64,000 nucleotides of DNA. Origin: Streptococcus parasanguinis (GTDB lineage: Bacteria > Bacillota > Bacilli > Lactobacillales > Streptococcaceae). The stretch spans positions 169,129 through 233,128 of the forward strand of contig NZ_CABFMD010000022.1 in NCBI RefSeq assembly GCF_901875555.1, written 5' to 3'. Made by a program: the position numbers and the translations under genes. This document shows, in pieces, positions 2,068 to 10,853 of the stretch. Within the stretch, counting starts at the first letter, position 1. Each line of letters begins with the position of its first letter. The notes under the pieces are model-generated. The model saw nothing but the letters and a program-made list of their open reading frames with translations. It ran no database searches and was not told the DNA's origin.

Positions 2068-2291
2068 TTGTCTTTAAATATTCAAAAAACTTAATGGCTA
2101 CTTTAAACGTCTTTATAGGCTATCGAATTAAGGGTTAGTTAATAGGTTTTAAATTTGCTATATCAGAACCAATTCCCATACCGTATTTATCAAATTTTTT
2201 GGAAACAGTACAATGATACAATTCCTATTTTAATTTACACTAAGTTAGTCTTGAAAATATTATAACTTTTATTTTAAGGAATGAAAGTCAT

Positions 2292-2372
2292 ATGGATATT
2301 AAACTTATTAAGATCAGTTATTTATTGGACAAAGAAATCTATATTATTAGATTGGAGAAAAGCTCTTCTTAA
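2292..2372 (+). CDS. Possible small ORF, 26 codons, cut by repeat A1
   Basis: An ATG at 2292 opens 26 codons starting MDIKLIKISYLLDKE and ending in SSS. A plausible promoter (TTACAC 2235-2240, 17-nt spacer, TATTAT 2258-2263) and AAGGA at 2276-2280 precede it, although the 11-nt spacing is long. The last seven codons lie inside the left end of repeat A1, so this may be the truncated remnant of a longer gene. No family is recognised. The rest of 2068-2348 shows nothing else. Confidence 0.2.
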   Translation: MDIKLIKISYLLDKEIYIIRLEKSSS

Positions 2373-2660
2373 AAACTTTCCTTAGGTGAGTACGGACGTC
2401 AGCGAACTTCTACGAAGTTCCATGACTAATTATGGAGCCTAAGGTCTCAATAATTCCGAGTGAGGCTGGGACAAAAGTCCTAGCCTCTCAATTGTCTTTG
2501 GATTTTCGAGCAAGACGCAGTGGTTGTGTGGGCTCTATTACGCTGATTTCATCATCTTATACAGCCCTACTCAACTGTGCGGAGGTGGGACGACGAAATC
2601 GAATTCTAACGAATTACCGATTTCTGTCCCACTCTCACTTTTCTCACAGCGGAAAGTTTC
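2349..2660 (+). repeat. Dispersed repeat family A, copy 1 (composite, carries nested family B)
   Basis: It matches copies at 17847, 52409 and 63727. It runs from AGATTGGAGA through AAACTTTCC (2373-2381), a GAACTTC/GAAGTTC hairpin and an imperfect hairpin around 2425-2455, to GGAAAGTTTC at 2651-2660. AAACTTTCC and GGAAAGTTT form an inverted terminal repeat. Copies 2 and 3 have a short GTGCCTGAAAC hairpin in the middle; here that position holds a full family B element. No protein is encoded; the ORF crossing it is an accident of the repeat. Confidence 0.85.
2462..2638 (-). repeat. Dispersed repeat family B, copy 1 (nested in A1)
   Basis: About 177 bp nearly identical in reverse orientation to the elements at 22055-22230 and 57055-57229. 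Shared landmarks are the GAGGCT(G/A)GGAC...GTCC(C/T)AGCCTC hairpin at one end, an internal ATTCGTTAGAATTCGAT-like segment and GAGAGTGGGACAGAAATCG at the other end. It is shorter-range and cleaner than any coding remnant and encodes nothing conserved. Confidence 0.85.
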
Positions 2661-2783
2661 AGTAGATGATAGAATTTATTAGATTTGTAAAACAGAACAG
2701 TTTTTCTACGCCCTGTATTATATATCCTGTTTTAAGACATGGGTACAGAATTTCTGTGCGAACTATTTAAAATATAAGAGTTA

Positions 2784-3629
2784 TTATTCCACATGCTCAT
2801 TGTAATGTTGCTGATACTGTGACCTGATACTATTTTCTCCCAAAATTTCAAACACTTTAAGAGCTTGTTGCATTTTTTCTAAACCACCTCTATTATTTAT
2901 TTTAAATTCATAATAGCCCGTAGCATATAGAAATACAGTTTGTTCATAGTAGTTGAACTCATTATTTAATAATTTTTTTATCTCATAAATTAGATAAGAA
3001 CAATTTTGAAATTTTCCTTTGTCAATACTTACAATTAGGCAGTTAATTGCCAGTTGAGTAACAAGTTTTTTATTAGTCTTGTTCAATGTTGAGTAAATAA
3101 AATTTTTAATCATTTCCTTTGTTAATAAAAAAGCAGAATTATATTGAATGGTTCGGATACAATTTGCTAATAGTATAATTTCATAGTATCCCCAAGTTTC
3201 AACTTTGAACAAATAGTCAGTCAAAGATTCTAATTCTGCCTCGGATGGTGAAATCTTATTATCCAATGTATAGATTATTGATTTTACCATAATTCGTTCC
3301 AATGAATTGAGTTGATAAATTGTAGAATTAGTGAGTAAGGCTTTAATGTTGTCAACATTTTGTAGGGAATATTCTTTACGGATATATTGCATTAAGTTGC
3401 CAAATGATATCGTTTGGGTGTATTCAGTATCATGAAGAATAAGAAATTCATCCAATGAGATATGTAATTTATCTAAAATATTGATAAGTCGAATACAAGA
3501 TATCTCAGATTCCCCACGCTCGAATCTGGAAATCTGTGATTTAGAGAGATGTTTATCTGCGATAGCACAGATACTTACTTGTTTGCTCTTTCGTATTTTT
3601 CTAAGTGTTTGACCAAGTTTAGATTTCAT
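2784..3629 (-). CDS. Rgg/MutR family transcriptional regulator
   Basis: A 281-residue Rgg-type regulator: an N-terminal XRE helix-turn-helix (about 5-60, with [12 protein letters not shown] as the recognition region) and a long helical repeat domain that in characterised Rgg proteins binds a short imported peptide. ATG at 3629 is preferred over the GTG at 3644 because the protein then begins [17 protein letters not shown], the usual Rgg opening; the upstream GCGGGA is only a weak Shine-Dalgarno. The gene is divergent from a 37-codon ORF and an MFS transporter, a typical arrangement for an Rgg and its target. Base composition is far more A+T-rich than the flanks, suggesting horizontal acquisition. 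The cognate peptide cannot be deduced with confidence. Confidence 0.88.
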
Positions 3630-3673
3630 TTTTCCCGCTTTCACAACAAAAGTCTAAATAGTTTTTATTTATT

Positions 3674-3700
3674 ATACAATACTTAAAAGAGAAAAGGAAA
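3674..3700 (+). promoter_or_regulatory. Probable Rgg-dependent promoter
   Basis: TATACAAT at 3674-3680 region is a good -10 but the region about 17 nt upstream (GTCTAA) is not a -35. A weak -35 beside a divergent activator gene fits Rgg-activated transcription, which is inferred. AAAAGGAAA precedes the small ORF at 3701. Confidence 0.4.
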
Positions 3701-3814
3701 ATGGATATGAAAATTTGTATAAATTTATTCCAATTTCAAATCGATAGTTTAACAATATCTAATGTAGAATTAGTATTTAATAATATAAAATCAAATTTTG
3801 AAGGGAGATTGTAG
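3701..3814 (+). CDS. Small ORF between rgg and MFS gene, 37 residues, function unknown
   Basis: ATG at 3701 with AAAAGGAAA directly upstream opens 37 codons: MDMKICINLFQFQIDSLTIS at the start and KSNFEGRL at the end. The stop at 3812-3814 lies 4 nt before the MFS start and the MFS Shine-Dalgarno (AAGGGAGA) is inside this ORF, so the two would be translationally coupled. It does not look like a canonical SHP peptide: there is no C-terminal run of hydrophobic residues after a charged segment. It could be a signal-peptide precursor, a substrate of the exporter or a coupling leader. It is too short for routine gene callers. No homologue is recognised. Confidence 0.5.
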   Translation: MDMKICINLFQFQIDSLTISNVELVFNNIKSNFEGRL

Positions 3815-3818
3815 GGGT

Positions 3819-5033
3819 ATGAGTAAAAAAAATATAATATTACTTATTTCTAGGGGACAAACTAATAATTTTGGAAATAGAGTATATGACTACGCAAATA
3901 AAATATTCATTGCTGCATTACCAAAATCGTCAGTATTTTTTATGTCAATTTATCAATCAACAGAGGTAATAGCGCAAATATTTTTTAATTTAATAGGAGG
4001 TTTTGTTGCAGATTTTGGAAATAGGAAAAAAATACTTATTTTAACGGATATCATCGCTGCTATTTCAACATTTGTTGCTTTTTTATTTCTAGATATGCCT
4101 AATAGTACAATAGTGTTAATAATAGTCAATATCATATTAGCTATTCTAAATTCTTTTAATAATCCTGCTTACAAAGCAATAGTTAGAGATTTATTGGATA
4201 AAAACTCGATATACATATATAATTCATACAGTAGGAGTATAGCAGAGATTTTTAATATAATAGTTCCATTTTTTGGAATTTGGATTATTTCTCTATTTGG
4301 TTTCAAAGTTTCAATGTTACTAAATTCATTAAGTTTTGTCATCTCTGCGATTATAGAATCGAAATTTGCTATTAAAAGACAAGGTTTTAAAGATCAGAAA
4401 ACTGCTAAAAAAGCAGATATAATGAAAAGTATTATTGAGGGATTTTGTTATATCCTTCAAAGAAAAGAGTTCTTTATTATTTTGATATTGGTATCTGTAT
4501 TAAATTTTTTCGTCGCGGGCATAGAACTTTATTTGCCATTTATAAATAAATTTTTAAATGTTTCCTATATGTATGGATATATATTAGAGGTTCAAACTAT
4601 TGGGAAAATACTTGGAGCGTACATCAATAAGTTTTTTAAGAATGATTTCACAATGTCTGAATGTTGTAACTTTTTACTTATGTCTTCAATTGCATTGGTT
4701 CCAATTGCTTTTATTAATAATATTTATTTAATAATATTGCTTTTTGGAATTAGCTCTTTGTTCATTATGATATTCGATGTTCAAATATTTTCAAAAATTC
4801 AATCAGAGATCTCAGAAGAATTTTTAGGTAGAGTTTTTAGTACTGTTTCATTACTATCCTTGGTCTTATCTCCAGTTGGAACTTTCGTTTTTTCTATTTT
4901 GAAATTTCATTCAGCTGTGATTTTTTCTATTATTGCATTATTCCAAGTTTTGTTCTGTATTTTTATAAAAATATTGCTTTCTTTTGTTAATTCTAAACTG
5001 TCATCAGAAAATGAACCTAATGGTTTGAAATGA
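3819..5033 (+). CDS. MFS transporter, macrolide-efflux-like (MFS_3 type)
   Basis: A 404-residue integral membrane protein with about 12 hydrophobic segments and, between TM2 and TM3, GGFVADFGNRKKILILTD, the MFS loop motif. The general pattern resembles MefA/NreB-type proton-driven exporters. ATG at 3819 is chosen over a TTG at 3798 because AAGGGAGA lies 10 nt before it and because MSKKNIILL is a natural N-terminus. The substrate is unknown; linkage to an Rgg regulator and a small ORF suggests export of a peptide or small molecule controlled by cell density (inference). Composition is strongly A+T-rich with many ATA and TTA codons, unlike the neighbouring core genes, which points to transfer. 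Confidence 0.85.
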   Translation: MSKKNIILLISRGQTNNFGNRVYDYANKIFIAALPKSSVFFMSIYQSTEVIAQIFFNLIGGFVADFGNRKKILILTDIIAAISTFVAFLFLDMPNSTIVLIIVNIILAILNSFNNPAYKAIVRDLLDKNSIYIYNSYSRSIAEIFNIIVPFFGIWIISLFGFKVSMLLNSLSFVISAIIESKFAIKRQGFKDQKTAKKADIMKSIIEGFCYILQRKEFFIILILVSVLNFFVAGIELYLPFINKFLNVSYMYGYILEVQTIGKILGAYINKFFKNDFTMSECCNFLLMSSIALVPIAFINNIYLIILLFGISSLFIMIFDVQIFSKIQSEISEEFLGRVFSTVSLLSLVLSPVGTFVFSILKFHSAVIFSIIALFQVLFCIFIKILLSFVNSKLSSENEPNGLK

Positions 5034-5129
5034 AAATTAAATATAGTCTCACAAATAGTTCAGAAATATTTAATTTATCAAAAAAATAATCACGATAGCA
5101 AAACAAGAATTAATTAAAGTCGAATATAA

Positions 5130-5169
5130 GAAGACCCCATTACGATTTGATGTAATAGCTTCCCTTTTC
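5130..5169 (+). terminator. Possible terminator of the MFS gene
   Basis: GAAG/CTTC outside and ATTAC/GTAAT inside form a weak two-part hairpin ending in CCCTTTTC. The rest of 5034-5130 shows nothing. Confidence 0.3.
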
Positions 5170-5188
5170 AACAATTTTCAAAAAAACG

Positions 5189-5217
5189 TTGACAAGCACG
5201 GAAATAAGTGGTAAAGT
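5189..5217 (+). promoter_or_regulatory. Promoter of the ABC exporter leader
   Basis: Perfect -35 TTGACA (5189-5194), 17-nt spacer and TAAAGT (5212-5217). It lies about 270 nt upstream of the first ABC gene, leaving a long leader. Confidence 0.75.
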
Positions 5218-5248
5218 TAGAACAACAAAGAGAAAGGAGAAAACCATC

Positions 5249-5320
5249 ATGAACAAAGTAGATGTTTTGATGACACAATTGAATACACAACTTCTCCAAT
5301 CTCAGTTGAGTTCTATGTAA
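5249..5320 (+). CDS. Leader peptide ORF upstream of ABC exporter, 23 residues
   Basis: GAGAAAGGAGAAAACCATC gives a strong Shine-Dalgarno before ATG at 5249. The 23-codon product begins MNKVDVLMTQLNTQLLQ and ends SSM, rich in Gln, Leu and Ser. Its stop lies 12 nt before the first terminator hairpin. Position, size and strength of translation signals fit a regulatory upstream ORF like bmrB before bmrCD in Bacillus subtilis, where ribosome stalling by antibiotics lets transcription pass the terminator. No sequence homology to BmrB is claimed. Confidence 0.65.
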   Translation: MNKVDVLMTQLNTQLLQSQLSSM

Positions 5321-5332
5321 AAAATGAATGAA

Positions 5333-5461
5333 ACCCAAGATGGAGGAGTCTGTCTTGGGTTTTTTGTATGCATTTTTGCCTGCTTTAACTGAATTGGTAA
5401 TAGGCATCAGAAGGCCCAAGTGTGGACTGAGCACCTACTCAGCTCCTTGCTTGGGTTTTTT
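5333..5461 (+). promoter_or_regulatory. Tandem-terminator attenuator before ABC exporter genes
   Basis: Terminator 1: ACCCAAGA (5333-5340) pairs with TCTTGGGT (5353-5360), then a T-run. Terminator 2: CCCAAG (5415-5420) pairs with CTTGGG (5450-5455), with an inner CTGAG/CTCAG stem, then six T. The 3' arm of the first (CTTGGG, 5354-5359) is also complementary to the 5' arm of the second, so one alternative pairing would disable both terminators. The layout fits ribosome-controlled attenuation by the upstream ORF; the mechanism is inferred. Confidence 0.7.
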
Positions 5462-5487
5462 CTGTGCCATTTTGAAAAGGAGAATAT

Positions 5488-7212
5488 ATGATCAGAGCTA
5501 TTTGGGAGTATATCAGGGAGCGCAAGTGGCGATATGTGAAGATCGCTATGGTCCTGATTCTTTATGATTATACCTTATTGATCCCGACGCAAGTTATTCA
5601 GCGTCTAGTGGATCATTTGAGTCAGCAGACGTTGACGCAATCCAACTTTGTATGGGATATGGTCCTCTTGGTAGGATCAGCCATCCTCAATTACCTGACG
5701 GCTTTTTATTGGCAGTTGCGCCTTTTTCAGTCGTCAGTCCATTTCAAGGCGACCCTTCAGGGACAAGCATTTCGTAAACTAGTAGCTATGCGGCGTCCCT
5801 TTTTTGAGAAATTCCGTTCAGGAGATCTCTTGACGCGGTTCACGACGGATGTCGATGGCATGGCCGACATGGCTGGTTATGGGATGATGGTGCTCCTGTT
5901 TGGTGGTGGCTTGTTTGCCTTTATTATTCCGACCATGTTTTTCATTTCTTGGCAATTAACCTTGATTTCCTTTATTCCCATGTTCTTCCTCATCGTCTCG
6001 ACCTATTTTTTGAGTAGAAAGCAGGAGGATTATGTTGAGCAAAACCGGGAAGCAGTCGCTCAGTTGAATGATGAAGTCTTGGAGTCCATCGAAGGGATTC
6101 GGGTCATGAGGGCCTATAGTAAGCGGGACCAGCAGGTCAAACAGTTTCAGAAGAAAACAGCCAGTCTATCCAAAACAGGGGATAAAATTGCTTCTATCCA
6201 ATATTCTTTTGGCCCCTTAGCCCTGTTTTTTATTGGTTTTTCGACGGTCCTACTCTTGGTATTTGGAGGTCAGTCATTAGCAAGCGGGCAATTGAGCCTT
6301 GGCAAGTTATTGGCTTTGCAGCTGTATTTGGTCTTTTTAATTGAGCCTATGTGGATGATGGCGGACCTGATCTTGGTCTATCAGACAGGGCAAATGTCTT
6401 ATAAAAAATTAAAAGAAGTGATTGATGAAACGGATGATCTCGAGACAGATGGTCCTAACGATTTAGAGCAGATTGATTCGGTGCAGTTTAAGGATTATTC
6501 TTTCAGGTATCCTGGTGCTGAGCGAAAGAGTCTATCAGGCATTGATTGGACCATTCAGAAAGGACAGACAGTTGGAATTGTTGGTCGTACCGGAGCAGGA
6601 AAGACAACCTTGGTTCGACAATTCTTGCGGCAGTACCCAGTTGGTGAGGGAGAATTCTTGGTCAACCAGCAACCGATCGTGGACTACAACCGACACTCCA
6701 TTGAAGCTAAAATCGGCTATGTTTCCCAAGAACATATTTTATTCTCAAAATCCATTCGTGACAATATTGCTCTGGGTAAAAATGGAGCCAGTGAAGAGGA
6801 TTTGGTGGAAGCTGTAGCCCAAGCTGCTTTTGCGGATGATCTTGAGCGGATGTCTCAGGGAATGGACACCATGATTGGTGAGAAAGGGGTCTCTGTATCA
6901 GGTGGTCAAAAACAACGGATCTCGTTGGCACGTGCTTTTTTAAGGGATGCGGATCTCTTGCTGTTAGATGATTCCCTTTCGGCAGTAGATGCGAAGACCG
7001 AACAGGCCATTATTGACACCATTCAAACAGAGCGTAAAAACAAGACGACCCTCATTGTTTCCCATCGCTTGTCTGCGGTTCATCAGGCGGATTGGATCAT
7101 AGTCTTGGATCAAGGACAGATTGTAGAAGAAGGTAGAGCTAGTGATTTACTGGCTCAAGAGGGCTGGTATTATGAACAATACCAACGGCAACAAAAACAG
7201 GAAGGAGAATAA
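5488..7212 (+). CDS. ABC multidrug exporter half-transporter, degenerate ATPase site subunit (BmrC/PatA-like)
   Basis: A 574-residue half-transporter: six-helix transmembrane domain (about 10-300) fused to a nucleotide-binding domain. Walker A GRTGAGKTT lies near 367-375, the signature VSGGQ is canonical (about 470), but the Walker B end reads LLLLDDSLSAVD, with Asp in place of the catalytic Glu. The partner gene has the opposite pattern, so the pair should form a heterodimer with one competent site, as in BmrCD, PatAB and TM287/288. Start ATG has AAGGAG upstream. The next gene starts 1 nt after the stop. Likely exports drugs from the cytoplasmic membrane; expression is probably drug-inducible through the attenuator. 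Confidence 0.88.
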   Translation: MIRAIWEYIRERKWRYVKIAMVLILYDYTLLIPTQVIQRLVDHLSQQTLTQSNFVWDMVLLVGSAILNYLTAFYWQLRLFQSSVHFKATLQGQAFRKLVAMRRPFFEKFRSGDLLTRFTTDVDGMADMAGYGMMVLLFGGGLFAFIIPTMFFISWQLTLISFIPMFFLIVSTYFLSRKQEDYVEQNREAVAQLNDEVLESIEGIRVMRAYSKRDQQVKQFQKKTASLSKTGDKIASIQYSFGPLALFFIGFSTVLLLVFGGQSLASGQLSLGKLLALQLYLVFLIEPMWMMADLILVYQTGQMSYKKLKEVIDETDDLETDGPNDLEQIDSVQFKDYSFRYPGAERKSLSGIDWTIQKGQTVGIVGRTGAGKTTLVRQFLRQYPVGEGEFLVNQQPIVDYNRHSIEAKIGYVSQEHILFSKSIRDNIALGKNGASEEDLVEAVAQAAFADDLERMSQGMDTMIGEKGVSVSGGQKQRISLARAFLRDADLLLLDDSLSAVDAKTEQAIIDTIQTERKNKTTLIVSHRLSAVHQADWIIVLDQGQIVEEGRASDLLAQEGWYYEQYQRQQKQEGE

Positions 7213-7213
7213 G

Positions 7214-8950
7214 ATGAAAGTATTGAAACGATTATTATCTTGGATTACTCTTTATCCGACGGTCTTTCTTTCCGGCTTTATTTGTCTTTTACTAGCGACC
7301 ATCTTTTCTGAGCTGTCTCCTTTTCTTCTCCAAAAGATGATCGATGGGCCTTTGACTGCACTGACCCACGGTGGAGGACAAGAGGACTTGCTTCAGATGG
7401 GAGCATTTTATCTCTTAGTCTTGAGCCTAGGACAGCTGATTAGCTACCTAGGAAATCGGATCTTGCTACACGGAAGTAATCAAGTAACCGCTAGTCTGAG
7501 AGACCAAGCCTTTCAAGTCATGCAAGGTCTGCCTATTTCTTATTTTGATGATAAACCGGCTGGGAAGATCGCAACAAGAATTGTCAATGATACGGAGACC
7601 TTGCGGACCCAGTTTTATAACTCTTGTATGATACTAGTCATCTATTTGGTGCGATTTCTCTTTATCCTAGGGATTCTCTTTTACCTGAGTCCTATGATGG
7701 GGCTACTCTTGTGTCTGGTTTTTCCAATTTTCTATGGAATCCAGTATCTCTACAAGGTCATGACGGACCAGCCTATGAAGGATTTTTTTGATGCGAGAAG
7801 CGAGGTCAATACCCAAGTCAATGAACTCTTGCATGGTGCCAGTATGATTCAGCTCTATCATCAAGAGCCTGGTGTGGTAGAGGAATTTGAAGCCACTACC
7901 CAGAAGATGCTAGGAGCTAATGATCGGATCCTCTTAGCTGATTCAATCGCTTCTTGGACCTTGACAGAATTGCTCAAGTTTTTAGTGATTGCAAGTATAT
8001 TGACCATCGCTGGGATTTCTTTCCTACAGGGGAATATCGGTGTGACAGCTGGTTTCTTATTTATCAATATTAACTATGTTATCAATCTGTTTGATCTCAT
8101 GGCCAATCTTAGTCGTCAATTTCCCAATATTCGGCGATCACTAGAGACGGGGAGTCGCGTCCTTGCCTTCTTGGATCAACCCTTAGAGGCCGACGGTGTA
8201 TCGGAACTGAAGATAGAAAAGGCTCAAGTCGTGTTTGATGATGTTCAATTTGCTTATGAAGAAGGCAAGCCAGTTTTACAAGATATTGCCTTTCAGGCTA
8301 GTCCAGGTCAAACCATTGCCCTTGTGGGCCATACTGGATCGGGTAAATCTTCGATTATGAACCTGCTCTATCGTTTCTACGATCCTCAAGAAGGAGCAAT
8401 TTTGATCGATGGTCAAGATATTCGCCAAGTCTCTCGTGAGAGCCTACGAAGCCACATGGGAATTGTCTTGCAAGATCCTTATCTATTTACAGGAACCATT
8501 GCCAGTAATGTGGCCATGAGCCAGGATCACATTGATCGGGATGCGGTCAAAGAGGCGCTGAAAAAAGTCGGAGCATGGCCCTTTGTAGAGCGCCTTGAAA
8601 AGAGTATCGACCATCCAGTCGTAGAAAAGGGATCCGCTTTTTCAAGTGGCGAGCGACAGTTGATTTCCTTTGCGCGGACGCTCTATATGAATCCGAACAT
8701 CCTGATTTTAGATGAGGCGACCTCTCACATCGATACAGAGACGGAAGAAGTCATTCAGAAGGCCATGGCAGTCCTGCAAAAAGGACGGACTACCTTTATC
8801 ATTGCCCACCGCTTATCGACCATTCAAGATGCAGATCAGATCTTAGTCTTATCTGAAGGACGCATTGTAGAGCGTGGTCGACATGAGGATTTGATCGCGC
8901 AAGGCGGGATCTATGCCCAGATGAATGCCATCCAGCAAACGGTAGTGTAA
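7214..8950 (+). CDS. ABC multidrug exporter half-transporter, catalytic subunit (BmrD/PatB-like)
   Basis: A 578-residue partner of the preceding gene. ATG at 7214 (MKVLKRLLSW) is used rather than an in-frame ATG at 7142 inside the upstream gene, because GAAGGAGAATAAG sits directly before it. Six transmembrane segments precede the ATPase domain with Walker A GHTGSGKSS (about 371-379) and an intact Walker B ILDEATSHID carrying catalytic Glu. Its signature is degenerate (FSSGERQ instead of LSGGQ), so the competent site is built from this Walker A/B and the partner signature. Probable name patB-type by family, but orthology is not proven. A strong terminator follows. Confidence 0.88.
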   Translation: MKVLKRLLSWITLYPTVFLSGFICLLLATIFSELSPFLLQKMIDGPLTALTHGGGQEDLLQMGAFYLLVLSLGQLISYLGNRILLHGSNQVTASLRDQAFQVMQGLPISYFDDKPAGKIATRIVNDTETLRTQFYNSCMILVIYLVRFLFILGILFYLSPMMGLLLCLVFPIFYGIQYLYKVMTDQPMKDFFDARSEVNTQVNELLHGASMIQLYHQEPGVVEEFEATTQKMLGANDRILLADSIASWTLTELLKFLVIASILTIAGISFLQGNIGVTAGFLFININYVINLFDLMANLSRQFPNIRRSLETGSRVLAFLDQPLEADGVSELKIEKAQVVFDDVQFAYEEGKPVLQDIAFQASPGQTIALVGHTGSGKSSIMNLLYRFYDPQEGAILIDGQDIRQVSRESLRSHMGIVLQDPYLFTGTIASNVAMSQDHIDRDAVKEALKKVGAWPFVERLEKSIDHPVVEKGSAFSSGERQLISFARTLYMNPNILILDEATSHIDTETEEVIQKAMAVLQKGRTTFIIAHRLSTIQDADQILVLSEGRIVERGRHEDLIAQGGIYAQMNAIQQTVV

Positions 8951-8975
8951 GATGATCATGCAAAGAAAAAGTTTG

Positions 8976-9011
8976 AAAACCAGCCTGTATCTAGTATATA
9001 GGCTGGTTTTT
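8976..9011 (+). terminator. Terminator of the ABC exporter operon
   Basis: AAAACCAGCCT pairs with AGGCTGGTTTT around a 13-nt loop and ends in T residues, 25 nt after the stop codon. Confidence 0.85.
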
Positions 9012-9015
9012 GTGA

Positions 9016-9046
9016 TATAATAAAGTGATAATAGTGAGGTGATCCA
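9016..9046 (+). promoter_or_regulatory. Promoter -10 and Shine-Dalgarno of ybeY
   Basis: TATAAT at 9016-9021 immediately follows the terminator of the previous operon; GAGGTGATC lies just before the ATG at 9048. Confidence 0.6.
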
Positions 9047-9047
9047 G

Positions 9048-9545
9048 ATGTATATTGAAATGGTCGATGAGACGGGTCAAGTCTCTGATGAAATCTTAAA
9101 ACAAACACGAGAAATTTTGGAATTTGCGGCCCAAAAGATTGGGAAAGAAGACAAGGAGATGGCGGTAACGTTTGTGACCAACGAACGCAGTCATGAACTC
9201 AATCTTGAATACCGAGATACGGATCGTCCGACAGATGTCATCAGTTTAGAATACAAGCCTGAGATGGAGATCGCGATTGATGAGGAAGATTTGGCTGAAA
9301 ATCCAGAATTGGCAGAGATGATGGCAGAATTTGATACCTATATCGGTGAGCTCTTTATTTCAATTGACAAGGCGCGGGAGCAAGCGGAAGAATATGGCCA
9401 TAGCTTTGAGCGCGAAATGGGATTTTTGGCAGTACATGGCTTTCTTCATATCAATGGCTATGATCATTATACGCCGGAGGAAGAAAAGGAAATGTTTGGC
9501 TTACAGGAAGAGATTTTGACAGCCTATGGACTCACACGACAATAA
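9048..9545 (+). CDS. ybeY: Endoribonuclease YbeY, 16S rRNA maturation factor
   Basis: A 165-residue single-strand endoribonuclease that acts in 16S rRNA 3' processing and ribosome quality control. The zinc motif [11 protein letters not shown] near the C-terminus holds the three conserved His, and [11 protein letters not shown] in the middle is the family hallmark. ATG at 9048 matches the usual length and has GAGGTGATC 7 nt upstream; the GTG nine bases earlier overlaps that Shine-Dalgarno. First gene of the ybeY-dgkA-era-mutM-coaE chain; dgkA overlaps its end by 20 bp. Confidence 0.95.
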
Positions 9546-9924
9546 ACGAAAATGGAAAAACCGGGACTTCACTTCTAGTTTGGAGTTCGCAATTACAGGG
9601 ATTTTTACTGCCATTAAAGAGGAGCGCAATATGCGCAAGCATGCTCTTTCTTCATTAGGAGCCCTTCTTGCGGGTTTGCTTTTTCGGATTTCTGCAACAG
9701 AATGGCTCTTTTTATTGCTCAGCATCACCTTGGTCATTGCTTTTGAGATTGTGAATTCGGCCATTGAAAATGTGGTGGATCTGGCCAGTGACTATCATTT
9801 TTCGATGCTAGCAAAGAATGCCAAAGACATGGCGGCTGGGGCTGTTCTGGTCGTATCAGGTTTTGCCTTGGTGACAGGATTAATCATTTTTGTGCCCAAA
9901 TTCTGGGCTTTGGTATTTGGATAA
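9526..9924 (+). CDS. dgkA: Diacylglycerol/undecaprenol kinase DgkA
   Basis: A 132-residue membrane kinase. Gram-positive members phosphorylate undecaprenol, recycling the lipid carrier for cell-wall synthesis, and are needed for acid tolerance in oral streptococci. Three hydrophobic helices are visible and the conserved block [16 protein letters not shown] carries catalytic Glu and Asn; [10 protein letters not shown] follows. The start lies inside ybeY, so expression is translationally coupled. Era follows 29 nt downstream. Confidence 0.92.
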
Positions 9925-9953
9925 GAGGGAACATGCCCTCGTGAAAGGAAATT

Positions 9954-10853
9954 ATGACGTTTAAATCAGGCTTTGTAGCCATTTTAGGACGTCCCAATGT
10001 TGGGAAGTCAACTTTTTTGAACCACGTCATGGGGCAAAAGATTGCCATCATGAGTGATAAGGCGCAGACAACGCGCAACAAGATTATGGGGATCTACACA
10101 ACCGATAAAGAGCAAATTGTCTTTATTGATACTCCGGGGATTCACAAACCCAAGACAGCTCTCGGGGACTTCATGGTGGAATCAGCTTACAGCACTCTTC
10201 GAGAAGTCGATACGGTCCTCTTTATGGTGCCAGCGGATGAAGCACGTGGCAAAGGCGATGACATGATTATGGGGCGCTTAAAAGAGGCTAAAGTACCTGT
10301 GATTCTTGTGGTCAATAAGATCGACAAAGTCCATCCAGACCAACTCTTAGCACAAATTGATGATTTTAGAAATCAAATGGATTTCAAGGAAATTGTGCCG
10401 ATTTCAGCCCTACAAGGCAATAATGTCTCGCGATTGGTGGATATCTTAAGTGAAAATTTGGAAGAAGGTTTCCAATATTTCCCAGAAAACCAAATCACCG
10501 ATCACCCAGAGCGTTTCTTGGTTTCTGAGATGATTCGTGAAAAGGTGCTTCAATTGACCCGTGAAGAAATTCCGCATTCAGTTGCGGTCGTGATTGATTC
10601 CATGAAGCGAGACGAAGAAACGGACAAGGTTCATATCCGTGCGACCATTATGGTTGAGCGGGATAGCCAAAAAGGAATTGTCATTGGGAAGCAAGGTTCC
10701 ATGCTTAAGAAAATCGGAACCCTTGCGCGGAAGGATATCGAGCTGATGCTAGGGGACAAGGTCTTTCTTGAAACCTGGGTCAAGGTCAAGAAAAATTGGC
10801 GGGATAAGAAATTAGACCTTGCTGATTTCGGATACAACGAAAAAGAATATTAA
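9954..10853 (+). CDS. era: Ribosome-assembly GTPase Era
   Basis: A 299-residue GTPase that binds the 3' end of 16S rRNA and couples 30S assembly to the cell cycle. G-motifs are complete: GRPNVGKS (12-19), the switch region [12 protein letters not shown] (about 59-62) and NKID (about 122-125). The C-terminal KH domain contains [15 protein letters not shown], the RNA-binding GxxG-type loop. Usual length for the family. A GAAAGG Shine-Dalgarno precedes the ATG. Confidence 0.96.

Follow-up and report, generated by a model that had tools for sequence, protein, structure and literature searches.

A divergent rgg-exporter locus of Streptococcus parasanguinis with an SHP-type receptor and no adjoining shp gene

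Introduction

What does an Rgg regulator respond to when the small gene that it faces is not recognisable as a pheromone gene? The question is raised by a locus within a 64-kb stretch of S. parasanguinis DNA (the window). A preliminary description had placed a peptide-responsive-type rgg opposite a 37-codon ORF followed by an MFS gene, in an A+T-rich block behind tRNA-Thr, and had proposed that the small ORF encodes a new type of signal peptide exported by the MFS protein. The gene order and coordinates were confirmed, as follows.

2784-3629, minus strand: rgg, 281 aa, Rgg2/Rgg3-type SHP receptor and regulator, as judged from PF21259, TIGR01716, a solved relative and sequence constraint
3701-3814, plus strand: 37-codon ORF (35 codons from the conserved ATG at 3707), most likely a remnant; frame lost in the nearest relatives (L001/L062 and L002/L063)
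3819-5033, plus strand: MFS exporter, 404 aa, matching PF07690 and, more weakly, PF05977 (MFS_3)

The reading that we favour, at a probability of roughly 0.47, is that the locus is an operon remnant without a pheromone, a receptor-only circuit that drives an exporter and is probably cued by foreign SHPs.

Results

The regulator resembles SHP receptors

The rgg frame starts at ATG 3629, and its product combines an Rgg-family helix-turn-helix regulator with an Rgg C-terminal domain (PF21259, E 1.1e-48; TIGR01716, E 1e-50), as in SHP/Rgg group I and in agreement with the preliminary assignment to peptide-type Rggs. The closest solved structure is the protein of entries 10lg, 6w1e, 6w1f and 7ji0 (E 2.2e-125), identified as S. 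thermophilus Rgg3 in PMC9765709.

We defined 99 near-invariant positions from 30 full-length Rggs that are accompanied by shp. The window Rgg keeps 98 of them, with the single difference in the DNA-binding part and all 63 positions of the C-terminal domain retained. For comparison, leave-one-out differences for the 30 shp-linked Rggs range from 0 to 20 (15 of them at zero), and 20 other loci without an intact shp show 0 to 5 differences. Folding instead of ligand binding may be the cause of this near-invariance.

These positions bear on the possibility that the Rgg acts without any peptide, being constitutive or redox-tuned, for example, with the MFS protein as a general efflux pump. Cys45, whose role in redox tuning we assume, is present in the window Rgg. 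In addition, stand-alone Rggs are mentioned in PMC12445099. However, the 63 of 63 C-terminal positions kept from pheromone-linked Rggs, in themselves no proof of binding, argue for a peptide receptor, and we regard a peptide-free regulator as unlikely, albeit a serious contender.

In the Rgg tree, the window and loci L062 and L063 form a branch of their own (100/100), with L066, L064 and L092 as the next rows by path. Rgg identity to the window is 98% in the two nearest relatives (genomes G216 and G001) and 69% in locus L053, discussed below.

Both rgg and the MFS gene look constrained, as judged from substitution patterns. Specifically, the window and L062 differ by 28 synonymous and 5 non-synonymous changes in rgg (dN/dS 0.04) and by 34 synonymous and 22 non-synonymous changes in the MFS gene (dN/dS 0.16); against L063, the ratios are 0.05 and 0.14, respectively. 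L062 and L063 differ from each other by 1 and 1 changes in rgg and 3 and 5 in the MFS gene, too few to show constraint. Both ORFs are open in all three loci. The ratios and the open frames count against the whole locus being a decaying remnant without function, a reading in whose favour stand the missing pheromone part, the absence of a biosynthetic gene between rgg and the MFS gene, and a small ORF that differs freely between relatives; on balance, we find complete decay improbable.

The promoter region is conserved and shp is missing from its place

Among the 284 genomes of the genus search, 262 contain some Rgg match. The locus set comprises 56 loci, namely the window and 55 Rgg hits with identities of about 49-98%, each covering the larger part of the protein or the pieces of a broken one; hits below about 48% identity were excluded. 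Most loci were taken with 10 kb on the target side, and some are cut by contig ends. Partial Rgg hits were dropped (G022, in three pieces, G173, G053, G067, G166 and a second hit in G272), some of which lie at contig ends and some of which are perhaps decayed rgg genes. The alignment of the 56 loci outlines the following elements between rgg and the small ORF.

3630-3651, no strand assigned: putative Rgg-box-like operator TTTTCCCGCTTTCACAACAAAA, conserved in the 56-locus alignment and one base off the two nearest relatives
3675-3680, plus strand: -10-like TACAAT of the divergent promoter TTTATTATACAATA, the same element as in the aligned promoters
3694-3698, plus strand: Shine-Dalgarno sequence AAGGA, 8 nt before ATG 3707, in the same place as the ribosome-binding site of the relatives' shp

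The window keeps 44 of the 51 promoter columns that are conserved at 80% or more in the 53 other loci. A conserved, putative operator and promoter thus lie between the genes, as in SHP/Rgg group I. A sigma-70 consensus scan of 3600-5500 gave zero plus-strand matches between rgg and the start of the small ORF, which bears out the earlier remark that the promoter has no consensus -35.

SHP/Rgg group I is defined, in PMC13361665, by a divergent shp whose peptide carries a conserved Asp. For shp calling, we scanned the first 420 bp beyond rgg for small ORFs, inspected 14 unclear loci in three frames and assigned the labels by hand, by which an shp of an unrecognised kind (in the distant L106, for example) would be missed. 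On these labels, 33 of the 56 loci have an shp-like ORF, in 7 it is broken, and 16 have none, the window and its two relatives among them. The shp-like ORFs end in DIIIIVGG or similar, with some altered (DIIIIVGR, DIIIIAGG, a lost stop). An intact adjacent shp is thus missing from 23 of 56 loci, a fraction that gives no comparison of shp loss with rgg loss, as loci keeping shp without rgg escape an Rgg search. The Rgg frame is full-length in all 23 loci without an intact shp and is not full-length in 3 of the 33 with shp. A tree restricted to the 53 loci whose Rgg is full-length requires at least 13 switches between an intact and a non-intact shp, a soft figure with 20 of the 49 inner branches open.

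In the window, no shp occupies its usual place, and the exact pattern DI(I/L)IIVGG has zero matches in the whole 64 kb. Likewise, the exact patterns DI(I/L)IIVGG and DIIIVGG have zero matches in G001 or G216, with variants such as DIIIIAGG falling outside these patterns. The strain may have an shp elsewhere in its genome. The window therefore resembles the S. thermophilus Rgg3 system of group I in Rgg sequence, divergent promoter, operator-like box and -10, but without shp at its place it falls outside the two-gene definition.

Because rgg has a low dN/dS, the near-invariant Rgg positions are retained and 44 of 51 promoter columns are kept, receptor and promoter look functional even though no shp adjoins them.

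Further Rgg2/Rgg3-type loci without shp are L076, L083, L084, L088 and L098; L078, L079 and L085; and L089. By eye, ABC-transporter-like genes lie behind the promoter region in the first five and in L089.

The small ORF is most likely a scrap

Two further elements concern the small ORF itself.

3709-3736, plus strand: tentative remnant of an shp gene start, aligning locally over 28 bp with the beginning of shp in L053
3801-3807, plus strand: AAGGGAG, the likely ribosome-binding site for MFS translation, with an 11-nt spacer, kept in both nearest relatives

Compared with G216 and G001, the promoter and Shine-Dalgarno region align closely, while a 57-bp portion of the small ORF is missing from both. 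In both relatives ATG 3701 is replaced by TTG, and ATG 3707 is kept with a frame that stops after 8 codons (MKICLNFY). The preliminary description had named loss of the reading frame among related loci as evidence against its proposal, and the frame is indeed conserved in neither of the two nearest relatives (n=2); moreover, 33 of the 56 loci have an shp-like ORF at this position. The proposal that the small ORF encodes a new peptide type is thus not supported.

The idea of a new pheromone, exported by the MFS protein, does have points in its favour: the ORF lies in the right place, with a Shine-Dalgarno sequence before ATG 3707, and when the 189-bp gap was shuffled 3000 times, an ORF of 37 or more codons opening with ATG arose 47 times (115 times if GTG and TTG also counted as starts), a length that is unusual, not decisive. 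Nevertheless, with the frame reduced to 8 codons in both relatives, a product that lacks an SHP-like hydrophobic end and has zero Pfam or NCBIfam matches at E 0.1, and an export route for Rgg peptides that runs through PptAB in studied species (PMC7564271, PMC5167397), we consider this reading highly improbable. For the same reason of PptAB-dependent export, the MFS protein is unlikely to export a signal of its own, as had been suggested.

The small ORF ends 4 nt before the MFS start at ATG 3819 and contains AAGGGAG, the MFS Shine-Dalgarno sequence, as originally noted. This arrangement would suit an ORF that is translated as a leader of the MFS gene and acts by attenuation or translational coupling, with no signalling role; in both relatives, too, the kept ATG opens a short ORF. 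Against such a leader, the relatives' short ORF stops upstream of the MFS Shine-Dalgarno sequence, and a terminator scan of 3600-5500 (loops of 3-8) gave zero plus-strand hairpins, making coupled translation a poor candidate.

The start of the ORF has a probable origin. Specifically, 3709-3736 aligns with the L053 shp start at a score of 27, against a shuffle mean of 17.2, with 8 of 1000 shuffles scoring as high; it also occupies the same position as that shp start, behind the same promoter. The small ORF thus probably begins with a trace of an shp start, as far as a 28-bp alignment can tell, and the 37 codons are most likely a scrap, made of that probable start followed by further sequence.

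We also considered whether the tail of the ORF could be what remains of the 3′ end of a GNAT-CmoA gene, such as precedes the MFS gene in L053, after deletion of the rest; by eye this seemed plausible. Shuffling rejected this candidate: in protein alignments to four homologues, 1988, 1794, 119 and 1751 of 2000 shuffles were at least as good, and in two DNA alignments 225 and 773 of 1000. As this match failed its test, no deletion end is located on the 3′ side.

Leaderless peptide systems of the RopB type offer another comparison. They are named in PMC12445099 and PMC13361665, and the 8-codon ORF (MKICLNFY) of the two relatives recalls them. However, that frame is confined to L062 and L063 and is read through in the window, and the Rgg subfamily differs.

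The exporter is related to that of a microcin C-like cluster

The MFS assignment was upheld (PF07690, E 8.4e-24). The protein is 95% identical in G001 and G216 and 77% identical in G239, and these three are the only ones of the 284 genomes with a match of at least 75%. Beyond the window's own entry, a large protein database contains eight MFS clusters at 98-100% identity and a further three at 84%, 79% and 78%, of which the 78% cluster is that of G239. Plasmid matches come from 10 records, all below 60% identity, and viral contigs contain no relatives of the MFS or GNAT-CmoA proteins.

Within 10 kb on the target strand, 23 of the 56 loci carry an MFS gene of one of the kinds covered by the search, namely 13 of 33 with shp, 4 of 7 with a broken shp and 6 of 16 without shp; three of these last six are the window and its two relatives. 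One parallel is L103 (G249), where rgg is followed by an MFS gene directly behind the promoter without shp; this MFS protein belongs to another subgroup, is 31% identical to that of the window, and its read-through match holds one stop. In L057-L060, MFS relatives (40-45%) come last in same-strand gene runs of biosynthetic appearance, as judged by eye. L055 and L056, whose MFS relatives are 47% identical, lack this arrangement.

The G239 metagenome genome (L053/L061) has the order rgg, shp, ThiF-methyltransferase, NodU-type carbamoyltransferase, GNAT-CmoA and MFS. The L053 ThiF-methyltransferase is 45% and 47% identical over 99% to ThiF proteins (612-613 aa) of Bacillus amyloliquefaciens and B. 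subtilis, and the CmoA part scores 218.3 with TIGR00740 (cut-off 193.3). According to the review PMC12250964, the B. amyloliquefaciens type of microcin C has an MccB with a C-terminal carboxymethyltransferase domain and an MccS-like enzyme. With its CmoA above the cut-off and its ThiF-methyltransferase identities, L053 fits this carboxymethyl-cytidine type. G239 is the only one of the 284 genomes with a full-length match to the ThiF-methyltransferase; 186 of 284, G239 included, match one of its two parts. The GNAT-CmoA protein of L053 has a 76% identical counterpart named from S. thermophilus. In L053 the N-terminal domain of the carbamoyltransferase is incomplete, as profile positions 1-115 are absent from the ORF; by eye, the missing part lies in another frame. 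At about 2812-2869 of L053, also by eye, an MccA-like candidate frame ends in ..RVLN*, with no start codon seen.

The window exporter is thus 77% identical to the last gene of a B. amyloliquefaciens-type microcin C-like block; in contrast to such clusters, the window has no biosynthetic gene between rgg and the MFS gene, where in particular no ORF encodes an MccB-type ThiF adenylyltransferase as present in L053. MccC is an exporting MFS transporter (PMC9239234), to which the window MFS is linked through its resemblance to the L053 MFS.

The window may be a stripped version of an L053-like operon. Its MFS protein is nearest to that of G239, while the Rgg tree places G239 elsewhere, in a group of 24, so rgg and the MFS gene may have different histories and have been joined by recombination. 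The L053 cluster, the sole one in 284 genomes and from a metagenome, may be a cousin and not the ancestral form. Stripping of a larger operon is therefore a likely history, though short of proven.

The microcin C-like block linked to Rgg/SHP covers 916-7191 of L053, in this Streptococcus metagenome genome. Beyond it, at 8648-10465, lies by eye a large-serine-recombinase-like gene.

A receptor-only circuit

The anatomy of the locus is well supported: receptor and promoter are of the SHP type, the pheromone gene is missing from its usual position, and an exporter lies behind. In the favoured receptor-only circuit, an SHP/Rgg operon of the Rgg2/Rgg3 type, with target genes ending in an exporter and possibly forming a microcin C-like peptide-nucleotide cluster as in L053, would have lost the part of shp that encodes the pheromone, together with whatever biosynthetic genes it had, and retained rgg, the operator, the promoter and, directly behind, the MFS gene. 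Rgg would still bind SHP-type peptides, taken up from SHP-producing neighbours, and in the bound state would activate the MFS gene, whose product would pump out an inhibitor made by those neighbours. We infer the foreign cue and the protective pump from this arrangement.

Receptors in print that lack a pheromone gene provide a precedent. PMC9765709 counts putative eavesdroppers among the RRNPPA receptors, and the window likewise keeps a receptor without an adjoining propeptide gene; that count covers only Rap and AimR, apart from a comment about PrgX, whereas the window holds an Rgg2/Rgg3-type receptor with an exporter as neighbour. S. thermophilus LMD-9, as tabulated in PMC7564271, also has MFS genes in its rgg loci. 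Two of the three MFS rows belong to loci with a listed shp, unlike the window locus; the table gives 59.7 and 28.9 for MFS genes of shp/rgg loci and 2.2 for another. No paper on this rgg-MFS locus, or on loss of shp with retention of an exporter, was recognised in a full-text literature search, which drew mostly on titles and the starts of abstracts and covered subscription journals thinly.

If the circuit works, this commensal would read the density signal of another strain as a warning and gain protection without the cost of a signal or a toxin. Eavesdropping, as proposed for RRNPP receptors, would then have a naturally occurring example. The genus suits a test of eavesdropping, since the peptides are cheap to make and the test is simple. 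More broadly, and tentatively, streptococci might repeatedly convert SHP/Rgg operons to receptor-only circuits, with signal and biosynthesis lost, receptor and exporter under selection, and non-producers stepping up a pump when the pheromone of a competitor reaches them. The window would illustrate this cleanly, and its exporter has a relative in a cluster for a peptide-nucleotide antibiotic. We hold this generalisation to be somewhat doubtful. The locus also counsels caution, as a short ORF beside an orphan Rgg need not be its pheromone.

The locus lies on an inserted A+T-rich island

The rgg-MFS block has a GC content of 0.267, against 0.423 for the 64-kb window, and in a sliding comparison across the window (step 50) no non-overlapping stretch of the same length is as low. 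The block follows a tRNA-Thr gene at 1952-2026, the sole Rfam match at gathering score, behind which lies an insertion.

2078-5164, no strand assigned: A+T-rich island, inserted behind tRNA-Thr and ahead of the patA leader, absent from L118 (G215) and L119 (G007); GC 0.282

The island measures 3.1 kb. In G215 and G007, two close relatives without it, homology to the window ends at 2066 and 2077 and restarts at 5165, in the patA leader, the two ends lying about 30 bp apart. The insertion is present in G216 and G001. The preliminary reading of a foreign, A+T-rich block was therefore right.

An intergenic repeat of about 180 bp (GGCTGGGACAAAAGTCC...) lies within the island at 2462-2642 and again in the window at 22231-22048 and 57228-57048, the other copies being 93% identical. 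Each of G001, G216, G215 and G007 contains at least 40-42 scored matches (121-136 first-look candidates), and G239 none. The repeat is a high-copy element of the S. parasanguinis species group.

Just beyond the island, at 5250-5370, inspection by eye showed a stem-loop with a run of T's behind it and a short ORF (MNKVDVLMTQLNTQLLQSQLSSM); two ABC transporter genes, which we take to be patA/patB, come next. The loop is longer than the 3-8 nt allowed in the terminator scan. This element is probably of the known PatAB attenuator type (PMC4319486).
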